64,000 nucleotides of DNA from Pseudomonadota bacterium (lineage in GTDB: Bacteria > Pseudomonadota > Alphaproteobacteria > Rhizobiales > Hyphomicrobiaceae): contig JAFECE010000011.1 in assembly GCA_018242295.1 (NCBI GenBank), positions 682,001 through 746,000 on the forward strand, given 5' to 3'. The notes under the pieces were generated by a model that saw only the letters and a program-made list of their open reading frames with translations, ran no database searches and was not told the DNA's origin. The position numbers and the translations under genes were made by a program. Positions 24,264 to 30,119 of this stretch are shown here, in pieces (the first letter of the stretch is position 1; each line of letters opens with the position of its first letter).

Positions 24264-24281
24264 CTACCTACTAGATGGTAG
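24264..24281. promoter_or_regulatory. TetR-type operator, copy A
   Basis: CTACCTACTAGATGGTAG: half-sites CTACC and GGTAG separated by eight bases around a CTAG core, 29 bases before the ATG of the CMD-like gene. The same spacing and half-sites recur directly upstream of the tetR gene at 30102-30119 and, more weakly, at 29491-29508. Confidence 0.65.
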
Positions 24282-24310
24282 TTTGTGCGCTAAACCTGGA
24301 AGGAAGTTTC

Positions 24311-24652
24311 ATGTCGCTGATGGATTGGAGCAAATACCGTGAATCGCTGATGGGCCGTATTGGTGAGCTGGGGAAATTATCCCCTGACTCAGTGGGAGGT
24401 TACATGATGGCCAGCGGAGCCGGAGCCAAAACGGGACATCTCAACGAAAAAACGCGCCAACTGATCTCCCTGGCTGTGGCGGTAACAACGCGATGCGATG
24501 GTTGCATTTCGGTGCATTCGCAAAAGGCGGTAGAAAATGGCGCGACCAAGGACGAGATTGCTGAGGCTCTTGGCGTCGCTATTGCAATGAACGCTGGCGC
24601 TGCGCTCGTGTACTCCGCCAGAGCGCTTGACGCGGTCGACGCGGCGAAGTGA
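24311..24652 (+). CDS. Carboxymuconolactone decarboxylase/AhpD-like protein
   Basis: A 113-residue protein of the CMD/AhpD fold: KTRQLISLAVAVTTRCDGCISVHSQKA carries the CxxC plus His redox motif (CDGC....H), followed by GATKDEIAEALGVAIAMNAGAALVY. AhpD-like members reduce peroxide-detoxifying partners or react with peroxides through the CxxC pair; ring-decarboxylating members lack it, so a thiol-redox role is favoured. GGAAGGA seven bases before the ATG at 24311 sets the start rather than the ATG-like codons upstream. Its operator matches those of the tetR locus 5 kb away. katG follows downstream, giving a possible oxidative-stress context. Confidence 0.9.
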   Translation: MSLMDWSKYRESLMGRIGELGKLSPDSVGGYMMASGAGAKTGHLNEKTRQLISLAVAVTTRCDGCISVHSQKAVENGATKDEIAEALGVAIAMNAGAALVYSARALDAVDAAK

Positions 24653-24674
24653 ATTGGCGGCGGGGTAAAGAAAG

Positions 24675-24702
24675 TCCTGACTCCGGAAACTCGGAGTCAG
24701 GA
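24675..24702 (+). terminator. Hairpin terminator of the CMD-like gene
   Basis: TCCTGACTCCG-GAAACT-CGGAGTCAGGA, a perfect 11-bp stem 23 bases after the stop. Only a short T stretch follows. Confidence 0.7.
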
Positions 24703-24865
24703 TTGATATCGGCGTCAGCTCGCAGCTGAGCTGCGATAAGTTTTCAACCTTCGAGAATGGTTGACGTCACACGTGCTTGGTCAGGCGCATCGTGCGCCCG
24801 AACAGCGGCCCAGGCCGCTCGCAGGAGACTTGCCGTCAGGATCGCGCGAGCAGGTAGAGAGGTCC

Positions 24866-24922
24866 AATTGTCTGCTTCGATAGACGGATAGAGAGATTTA
24901 ATTGCCTGCTTCGATAGACGGA
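24866..24922. repeat. Two 23-base direct repeats upstream of katG
   Basis: AATTGyCTGCTTCGATAGACGGA occurs at 24866-24888 and 24900-24922 with one mismatch (T or C) and a period of 34 bases, just over three helical turns. The regular spacing suggests two binding sites for one regulator about 220-280 bases before katG. It does not fit the OxyR consensus well. Confidence 0.7.
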
Positions 24923-25144
24923 ACGCACAGCGCGACTTAGGTAAAAGCGCGGGCATGTGCAGCCACAAATTTTTCGGCAGAGCTTAACACGTAAGCTGGA
25001 TTTTTGTACTATTTGCTGTCCGGTTCCCGACGGCGCGGGCTAGTTTGTGTGGTCCTCATCACTATCTGACCGGTTTGGCCCGAGGTTGTCGACAAGGCTG
25101 TATTTAGCCCGGAACTTTCAGCTGCGCCAGTTGATGGCGCTCAA

Positions 25145-28442: not shown

Positions 28443-28458
28443 CTGGAGCCTCCCTTGT

Positions 28459-29484
28459 TTATTCCCATTCCAATTCGGCAAACGCGGCTATGACGTTGCG
28501 GACGTGGTATTGGTCGAAGAGTTGCCATTTGCCGCGTTCTGACTGGCCGGCCACCTTGGTGGCCTCCTCCATCGTCTTCCCTTCCTTTATTAGTTTGCGC
28601 ACGTCTGCCGCGACCACCGACCAGTATCTGCGCTCGTCGGCGACTGCGTTTGGCAGTTCCATCGCGTGGGGCCCATGGCCGGGAACGATGCGCGCGGCTT
28701 GGAGGTGCTCGAGCTGCTCAATGAGAGCGAGCCATCCCCTGATTGAGCCGTCGAGTGTCGGAATAGCACCGGAGAACAGCAGATCCGCGAGAATGACAGT
28801 GTTCGTCAACGTATCGGTGACGATCAGATCATTGTCGGTGTGAGCGGTTTTTTGCGCCTCGAGGCGAAGCGTGCGATCTCCAAGGCTGATCTCGAGTTTG
28901 TCTTGAACATTCACAGTTGGCAGTATGATTTCACACCCCTCGAAGGCGTCGGGCCCCAGCATATCCTTGCTCGCAGCCAGATATTGGCTCGCTCGTTCGG
29001 ATAGACCGCGCGCCAACTTGTGATGGGCTACATACTGCGGGTTATCGTCCTTGAACGCGGTGTTCCCGAAGACGTGGTCGGGGTGCATGTGACTGTTGAT
29101 CACGTAACGAATGGGTTTGTCAGTTATCGTGCGGATTGCGTTTCTCAGTTGCTTGCCGGCCTTAGCGCTGCCGAGAGTGTCGATAACAGCAACGGCCTCG
29201 GAGCCGACAATGAAGCTGGCATTGGCCATATCGCCCATGTTCTGGGGTGATTGCAGCTCATAGCGGCCCTGGTGGACGAAAACGCCCTTGGCGACTTCTG
29301 TGAACGTGAAGCCGGTTGATGCACTGGCATCGAACCGGGAAAGAAACGGCGCGACCGTAAAACCGAGTGCCGCGCCCAGCAGGCTTCGCCGTTTGACAGT
29401 GCAGCACCGCAACGCTTGGGAAACTGCGTCAGTTGCTTCGGTCTCGGCGGTCGCGATAGAGCTCAACTGGTCCGTTGTACACAT
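28459..29484 (-). CDS. Quinoprotein relay zinc metallohydrolase (metallo-beta-lactamase fold)
   Basis: A 341-residue MBL-fold hydrolase. The zinc motif is HMHPDHVFGN, with further ligand segments AHTDNDLIVTD and VPGHGPHAM. A twin-arginine-like signal KRRSLLGAALGFTVAPF starts around residue 31, so the mature enzyme should be periplasmic. Together with the SoxYZ-like carrier 16 bases downstream this is the pair named quinoprotein relay system, linked in methylotrophs to PQQ-dependent alcohol oxidation. Its exact substrate is unknown. Start ATG with GAAGGG nine bases upstream. The 42-base gap to tetR contains a half-match to the TetR-type operator. Confidence 0.88.
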   Translation of the reverse strand: MCTTDQLSSIATAETEATDAVSQALRCCTVKRRSLLGAALGFTVAPFLSRFDASASTGFTFTEVAKGVFVHQGRYELQSPQNMGDMANASFIVGSEAVAVIDTLGSAKAGKQLRNAIRTITDKPIRYVINSHMHPDHVFGNTAFKDDNPQYVAHHKLARGLSERASQYLAASKDMLGPDAFEGCEIILPTVNVQDKLEISLGDRTLRLEAQKTAHTDNDLIVTDTLTNTVILADLLFSGAIPTLDGSIRGWLALIEQLEHLQAARIVPGHGPHAMELPNAVADERRYWSVVAADVRKLIKEGKTMEEATKVAGQSERGKWQLFDQYHVRNVIAAFAELEWE

Positions 29485-29490
29485 CGCCGC

Positions 29491-29508
29491 CGCCCTTCTA
29501 GTTGGTAG
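29491..29508. promoter_or_regulatory. TetR-type operator, weak copy C
   Basis: CGCCCTTCTAGTTGGTAG has a perfect GGTAG half, the CTAG core and the same eight-base spacing as copies A and B, but a degenerate left half. It overlaps the ribosome-binding region of the metallohydrolase gene. Confidence 0.4.
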
Positions 29509-29526
29509 GAATGTGACGCAAATGTT

Positions 29527-30096
29527 TTATCGAATAATCGTTTCGAGAACCTGTTTATAGGTAGCCTTGACGTTGCTCGCATCCTTGAGCGCCCAAGCCA
29601 CGATGCTGGCTCCTTGCAACGTGCTCAAAAGTGTCAATGCCGAGCGTGAGGCGGAGGGCTCGCTTTTAAGTTCACGTGCCCGTATTCCTTCCGAGAGGGT
29701 GAGCTGCAGCCACTCCAAGTGAAGCTGAAAGAAGCGCTTCACTCGCCGCTGCATTGAGCTTGGCAATTCAACCGCGTCTGCTGCCAGTGCACCACAAAGC
29801 GGCATCATGCCGTCGCGAAGACTGGCCGAAAAGAAATCGCCGTAGGCCAGCAGTTTGGTCGGGGTGTCGGCCGAACTGTTCGTTAGCCTATCGAGCTCGT
29901 GGGCGAATTCCTCCAGATAAGCGTCAATCACGGCGACGCCCAGATCTTCCTTGGTAGGGAAGTGGTGATGAATGCTTGCTTTGCGGATTTTCACCTTGGC
30001 GGCCAGATCCGCGTAGCTAAAAGCAGCGTAACCCTGCGTCCGCAAAAGCTTTTCCGCTTCGTTCAGCAATAAAGTTCGGGTATTGATCGGTCTCAT
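29527..30096 (-). CDS. TetR-family transcriptional regulator
   Basis: A 189-residue repressor. The N-terminal helix-turn-helix is clear: LLNEAEKLLRTQGYAAFSYADLAAKVKIRKASIHHHFPTKE-like (about residues 9-50), followed by a C-terminal ligand-binding domain with a TetR_C/YcdC-like pattern (CGALAADAVELPSSMQRRVK). A near-perfect dyad (30102-30119) lies six bases before its start codon, so it very probably represses itself and the metallohydrolase/carrier genes behind it. The same dyad precedes the CMD-like gene at 24.3 kb. The inducer is unknown; a quinone, aldehyde or phenolic compound would fit the regulon. Confidence 0.92.
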   Translation of the reverse strand: MRPINTRTLLLNEAEKLLRTQGYAAFSYADLAAKVKIRKASIHHHFPTKEDLGVAVIDAYLEEFAHELDRLTNSSADTPTKLLAYGDFFSASLRDGMMPLCGALAADAVELPSSMQRRVKRFFQLHLEWLQLTLSEGIRARELKSEPSASRSALTLLSTLQGASIVAWALKDASNVKATYKQVLETIIR

Positions 30097-30101
30097 ACGA
30101 T

Positions 30102-30119
30102 GTACCTACCAGTAGGTAG
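30102..30119. promoter_or_regulatory. TetR-type operator, copy B (tetR promoter)
   Basis: GTACCTACCAGTAGGTAG: half-sites TACC and GGTA(G) with the same eight-base spacer as copy A, in a longer dyad TACCTACC-AG-TAGGTAGG. Immediately upstream of the tetR ATG, as expected for autorepression. Confidence 0.7.

Follow-up and report, generated by a model that had tools for sequence, protein, structure and literature searches.

We analysed a 64,000-nucleotide stretch of DNA (hereafter the window) from a Pseudomonadota bacterium of the Hyphomicrobiaceae (GCA_018242295.1, contig JAFECE010000011.1, positions 682,001 to 746,000), in which an inverted repeat lies upstream of genes encoding a TetR-family repressor, a carboxymuconolactone decarboxylase (CMD)/AhpD-like protein and a zinc metallohydrolase that is paired with a SoxYZ-like carrier. 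The relevant features, in window coordinates, are as follows:

24264-24281, no strand: dyad CTACCTACTAGATGGTAG, an exact match to CTACC-N8-GGTAG, 29 bp ahead of the CMD start codon
24311-24652, plus strand: CMD/AhpD-like protein of 113 amino acids with CxxCxxxH (core domain TIGR00778, PF02627)
27597-28448, minus strand: fused SoxYZ-like carrier (TIGR04557) with a single cysteine in GGC; start codon uncertain
28459-29484, minus strand: SoxH-like zinc metallohydrolase (TIGR04559) with HxHxDH
29491-29508: weak dyad, CCTACCAACTAGAAGG on the coding strand, with two mismatches to CTACC-N8-GGTAG, between tetR and the metallohydrolase gene
29527-30096, minus strand: AltR-like TetR repressor of 189 amino acids, in which Cys101 is the only cysteine
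30102-30119, no strand: dyad GTACCTACCAGTAGGTAG, CTACC-N8-GGTAG with one mismatch, 5 bp ahead of the tetR start codon
30126-30131, minus strand: TTGACT, which may serve as a −35 element, 13 nt 5' of the tetR dyad

Both members of the metallohydrolase-carrier pair exceeded the curated cut-offs of their families (253.6 versus 140 bits for TIGR04557 and 387.8 versus 280 bits for TIGR04559). The cysteine of the carrier, Cys159, is kept in all 39 distinct SoxYZ-like matches (58 rows), and the CMD protein has the cysteine motif of AhpD/CMD thiol peroxidase-like proteins. The only Pfam match of the repressor was TetR_N, and none of the NCBIfam regulator models reached its cut-off on this protein. Candidate reactive cysteines are present in three of the proteins, namely at Cys101 of TetR, in the CxxCxxxH motif of the CMD protein and at Cys159 of the carrier.

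The original prediction had placed the dyad ahead of the CMD gene and of tetR, with a weaker copy in front of the metallohydrolase gene, and all three sites are where it put them. Its statement that the window contains no other close match holds for the full consensus; the shorter TACC-N8-GGTA also occurs at 25171-25186 inside katG, with inner bases that do not fit the consensus. The tetR dyad can also be read in a second register (30106-30123, two mismatches); the half-sites within 30102-30123 overlap in a 4-bp register, so that two dimers might occupy one operator. Loose dyads in the window alone were not significantly enriched (14 at ≤2 mismatches versus a shuffle mean of 8.65, with at least 14 in 7 of 100 shuffles), and the window-only statistics were therefore replaced by genome-wide and comparative tests.

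Dyads in the genome and the genus

The degenerate consensus used for these tests, TACCWWSYRSWWGGTA, was written and weighted after the first sites had been seen, and counts based on its score are therefore not blind; sites far from tetR, XoxF-linked controls and the spacing of TTGAC elements are more independent tests. In the 4.05-Mb genome that contains the window, TACC-N8-GGTA occurs at 12 places (48 for the reversed control), 4 of which sit ahead of two tetR and two CMD genes. In a genome scan for the dyad, which the original prediction had proposed, all four places matching TACCWWSYRSWWGGTA at ≤1 mismatch are upstream of these genes (tetR1, CMD1, tetR2 and CMD2); the reversed control likewise matches at four places. 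The motif is not over-represented; the non-random feature is the positions of its sites. None of the places at ≤1 mismatch lies at katG, which was rejected as a member of the regulon, and the sequence does not support an oxidative regulon in the sense of katG.

The notion of one repressor was too simple, since the genome encodes a second TetR (TetR2) that is 70% identical to the window TetR and has its own dyad. The second cluster (L043:8103-10315, about 660102-662314 of G000:C5) consists of tetR2, a metallohydrolase remnant, beside which the counterpart of the weak third site is eroded, and CMD2 on the opposite strand, whose product is 89% identical to the window CMD protein. Downstream of CMD2 and in the same orientation lies a putative flavin mononucleotide (FMN)-dependent azo/quinone reductase gene, assigned by reading the sequence without a family search.

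Conservation was assessed in a set of 22 genomes of the genus. Among the matches listed, the closest named relatives of the window TetR are from Hyphomicrobium, and the TetR of one member of the set (G004) is identical to that of a locus (L066) in a Hyphomicrobium metagenome-assembled genome; judged by these relatives, the genome of the window is taken for a Hyphomicrobium. Across the 22 genomes, 7 places in 5 genomes match the consensus exactly (reversed control, 10 places in 9), and six of the seven are ahead of tetR or CMD in four genomes carrying this TetR. This TetR is also encoded in a fifth genome, G017, where the dyad before tetR departs from the consensus at one inner base and a close CMD gene is missing. 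The seventh exact place is in G009, where the perfect palindrome TACCAACCGGTTGGTA (G009:C27:7299-7314, L209) precedes the matched part of another TetR gene (30% identical) by about 48 bp.

The CMD genes of the genus set (15 matches at E ≤1e-15) divide by identity to the window protein. All five at ≥86% identity have an upstream dyad scoring 25-27, and none of the ten at ≤78% has a dyad above 23. Dyads precede the CMD genes of cluster 2, G008, Hyphomicrobium zavarzinii, G004 and, in an imperfect form, G019. The dyad is kept in G008 though 27 kb separate the CMD gene from tetR, and in H. zavarzinii with the CMD gene on another contig than tetR. When the upstream stretches of six CMD genes were compared, 10 of the 15 pairs fell below the maximum of 50 shuffles, two equalled it and three were above it; each stretch keeps the dyad. 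Hyphomicrobium sulfonivorans S1 and Hyphomicrobium sp. D-2 have the gene order tetR, metallohydrolase, SoxYZ and CMD on one strand, and there the CMD gene, as the last of the four, has no site of its own.

Conservation of the third site extends to several relatives and not to all. The block CCTACCAACTAGAAGG is kept before the metallohydrolase gene in the window and in G017 and before the CMD gene in G004 and G019. Locus L067 has the same 14-base core before the metallohydrolase gene, and L065 has a variant.

TetR-linked and XoxF-linked metallohydrolases

A wider set of 79 loci was found through TetR, drawn from the best 80 of 562 relatives, a sampling that biases the link frequencies upward. 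Upstream dyads were counted at a score of at least 24 within about 200 bp; near-identical loci were counted separately, and three CMD matches at contig ends were dropped. Such dyads precede 38 of 92 TetR matches, 17 of 26 metallohydrolases and 20 of 30 CMD genes, against a background of 1.84% of 5000 random stretches, and none precedes the 28 SoxYZ matches (the second gene of the operon) or the two katG genes near a related tetR. In two Lysobacter loci (L079:5684-8549 and L093:2796-8549) katG lies near an AltR-like tetR, with no dyad before it. A recount for the metallohydrolases took the upstream limit from the open frame, a longer stretch to which the 1.84% background does not apply, and found the dyad at 21 of 26 TetR-linked genes versus 0 of 22 XoxF-linked ones. 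The dyad was recovered beside CMD and relay genes in relatives, where the original prediction had suggested looking for it.

The same prediction had read the CMD protein as acting on a product of quinoprotein-dependent alcohol or phenol oxidation, and this reading is not supported. Neither the window (best E 0.72) nor the TetR-linked loci, with flanks of up to 8 kb, yielded a XoxF-like dehydrogenase, and no association of the TIGR04557/TIGR04559 pair with a quinoprotein dehydrogenase was seen for the TetR-linked copies. XoxF-linked loci, which include the other metallohydrolase copy of this genome, gave neither a TetR match nor a dyad. Their pairs (cf. PP_2677/PP_2678 of the ped cluster, described in the available portion of PMC12997753) share the two families, the carrier cysteine and the zinc motif with the window pair, and differ in adjoining a pyrroloquinoline quinone (PQQ) dehydrogenase. 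Five more distant metallohydrolase copies (26-32% identical) also have no dyad.

In Methyloligella GL2 the dyad stands ahead of a metallohydrolase gene 1.6 Mb from tetR, if the contig coordinates of both searches agree. Ten genomes of Methylobacterium, Methylorubrum and Acidomonas have one metallohydrolase each (E ≤1e-20), the TetR-linked one. On a tree of 57 metallohydrolases, from which duplicates and rows shorter than 180 amino acids had been dropped, the TetR link needs four changes, three of them forced by well-supported branches; when both unlinked Methyloligella rows are counted as TetR-controlled, three changes are needed and two are forced. Because of these forced changes, the coupling of TetR to the metallohydrolase was gained or lost more than once, an estimate that the TetR-based sampling biases.

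A TTGAC element lies 9-18 nt 5' of 37 of the 86 distinct dyads versus 0.62 expected, and the operator is therefore likely to lie within the promoter. This spacing test was more useful here than a sigma-70 scan, which found no promoter at threshold in either of its two stretches, including none at the TTGACT of 30126-30131.

That the pair answers to a site of its own can be questioned. In G004 and G019 the third-site block separates tetR from CMD, and the window copy has lost its outer half-site, as would be expected if the working sites were only those of tetR and CMD, if the metallohydrolase site were left over from an ancestral tetR-CMD arrangement, and if transcription from tetR simply ran on into the pair. 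We regard this as unlikely, given the strong dyads upstream of the metallohydrolase in Methylobacterium-type genomes, in Methyloceanibacter and, far from tetR, in one Methyloligella genome; moreover, even with read-through the tetR dyad would govern the pair. Sequence evidence supports the regulon well: the dyad links tetR, the CxxC-type CMD/AhpD-like gene and the metallohydrolase/SoxYZ-like pair, as originally proposed, both in this genome and in relatives.

Kinship of the repressor and its candidate signal

In a tree of 111 TetR rows, with AltR, NemR and L029 on long branches, the window TetR falls in a 62-row clade (support 100/99) together with Pantoea AltR and the PfAR-1 TetRs; three of the 79 loci come from PfAR-1. 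The cysteine that is Cys101 in the window TetR, and that aligns with AltR Cys100, is kept in 61 of the 62 rows. Escherichia coli NemR is outside the clade, and NemR membership of the window TetR was rejected. NemR is likewise a TetR repressor with a reactive cysteine that represses its own operon (from the available portion of PMC13178969); its cysteine is two alignment columns away. As reported in that same portion, both allicin and dimethyl thiosulfinate lift repression by AltR, for which Cys100 is essential, and N-ethylmaleimide (NEM), diamide, H2O2 and two disulfides have no such effect. AltR is in this way a sensor of sulfur poisons of the garlic and onion type.

The AltR regulon of the alt cluster in Pantoea ananatis PNA 97-1R (PMC13178969, available portion) resembles the window locus in its cysteine column, the inverted repeat before its own regulator gene, TACC/GGTA-type boxes and an adjoining CMD gene, which is directly 3' of altR and encodes a protein 63% identical to the window CMD protein. 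On the deposited sequence the published AltR boxes overlap the present consensus (L168: 6726-6747 and 8387-8408) with a 2-bp shift. Judged by sequence, a CMD/AhpD gene belongs to the regulon, as in alt/alr systems. The alt cluster differs in having genes for OsmC, DsbA, an alkene reductase, thioredoxin and Gor, which have no counterpart with a site at ≤1 mismatch here, and no metallohydrolase-SoxYZ pair is annotated in the alt stretch. We did not file the locus as an alt cluster because OsmC, DsbA, thioredoxin, old yellow enzyme (OYE) and Gor are not under the dyad at ≤1 mismatch (weaker sites were not searched). The PfAR-1 allicin-resistance regions of Pseudomonas share the TetR clade and a dyad before CMD (L112); ahpD, of the CMD family, is a main resistance factor, and its overexpression confers allicin resistance. 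As far as the available portion of their description goes (PMC7119367), they have a larger gene set without a SoxYZ-like pair. Genes behind the dyad in relatives resemble OsmC, DsbA/FrnE, short-chain dehydrogenase/reductase, OYE, thioredoxin and glutathione reductase (named by reading the sequences), a set like those of the PfAR-1 region (PMC7119367, available portion) and the alt cluster.

We consider it probable, from these comparisons of sequence, that the window contains an AltR-like TetR regulon of tetR, CMD and the metallohydrolase-SoxYZ pair that is released by a thiol-reactive sulfur compound. The repressor would bind TACC-N8-GGTA over the three promoters, and modification of Cys101 would release it and allow expression. 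The kinship of TetR and its lone cysteine favour a thiosulfinate, or a related thiol-reactive sulfur compound, as the signal, and the three candidate reactive cysteines suggest such a signal together with repair by the CMD protein and capture by the carrier. The CMD protein may reduce or resolve mixed disulfides inside the cell, and the carrier, probably periplasmic, may take up sulfur adducts on its cysteine. The SoxH-like hydrolase could then free these adducts in the periplasm, which is conjecture; the chemistry of the pair is the least certain part of the scheme. Some methylotrophs of this kind handle methanethiol, which makes dimethyl thiosulfinate an attractive signal. It, or another thiosulfinate or methylated-sulfur product, is the most likely ligand.

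Several observations weigh against this scheme. The weak dyad at 29491-29508 reaches a score of 23.0, short of the 24 required in the counts; its block is absent from three Hyphomicrobium loci (L064, L068 and L069), and no TTGAC was found just upstream of the window CMD dyad. No dyad was found within about 200 bp of 54 of the 92 TetR matches, perhaps because many Pseudomonas tetR genes are inside longer operons, and 5 of the 26 TetR-linked metallohydrolases have none scoring at least 24. The unlinked metallohydrolase of M. halotolerans has no dyad (19.5), leaving one of two unlinked Methyloligella copies with one. The window TetR is 36% identical to AltR, so the ligand could differ, and the published AltR boxes are written with N6 spacing rather than N8. 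The 18 Methylobacterium-type TetR rows are outside the clade and two of them lack this cysteine, which makes the term AltR-like looser for these proteins. In the genome no further alt/alr-type gene with a site at ≤1 mismatch was found (weaker sites were not searched).

The same regulon could instead answer to an electrophile or quinone, in the manner of NemR, perhaps arising from quinoprotein-linked alcohol or phenol oxidation. NEM and diamide activate NemR (PMC13178969, available portion), the putative FMN quinone/azo reductase gene follows CMD2, and quinoprotein dehydrogenases gave the metallohydrolase and carrier families their names. The position of NemR outside the 62-row clade, the indifference of AltR to NEM, diamide and H2O2, the lack of XoxF-like genes from the TetR-linked loci and the lack of the dyad from all 22 XoxF-linked copies make this quite unlikely. 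A signal of inorganic or protein-bound sulfane sulfur (persulfide or thiosulfate-derived), with the regulon as one arm of the control of sulfur oxidation in Hyphomicrobium, would suit a SoxYZ-like carrier with a SoxH-like hydrolase and the control of Hyphomicrobium denitrificans thiosulfate oxidation by sulfane-sulfur repressors, and is very unlikely because those repressors belong to the ArsR type and sHdrR works through two conserved cysteines (PMC12423496, available portion), whereas the window TetR has one, in the AltR Cys100 column.

Release of an AltR-like repressor by a thiol-reactive sulfur compound would extend thiosulfinate-type sensing to methylotrophs. What appears to be new is that AltR-type control in methylotrophs reaches a SoxYZ-like carrier and SoxH-like hydrolase, proteins that are poorly characterised and are found alongside the PQQ dehydrogenases of methylotrophs and other Proteobacteria (PMC12997753, available portion). 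In the portions of the literature accessible to our search, no paper was found that links an AltR-like sensor to this pair; a search for six dyad words found none, and for a TetR repressor or operator with carboxymuconolactone decarboxylase the search listing showed nothing on this link. With a conserved operator tying the pair to such a sensor, there is a definite signal and a definite phenotype to look for in methylotrophs. It is possible, and we offer it only tentatively, that what had been called the quinoprotein relay pair is in essence a module of the periplasm that catches and hydrolyses sulfur adducts of thiols and that joined or left AltR-like control more than once. Methylotrophs on methanol or methylated sulfur would in this way resist thiosulfinates, perhaps self-made, and the XoxF-linked copies would likewise protect a disulfide-bearing dehydrogenase.

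Upstream of the CMD gene in the window, positions 19844-23876 encode on one strand a MauG/MbnH-like di-haem enzyme, a small protein without a family match and a TonB-dependent receptor. Methylophaga thiooxydans, a dimethyl sulfide degrader with an AltR-like TetR, has no CMD match in its locus (L107), and no mention of this system was found in the accessible portions of the literature. In Pseudomonas, a dyad lies between genes resembling, by reading, a pyridoxal phosphate (PLP)-dependent cystathionine lyase and an amino-acid permease (L076:6200, L077:6199, L112:4417 and L116:4416), and these genes are possibly further targets.

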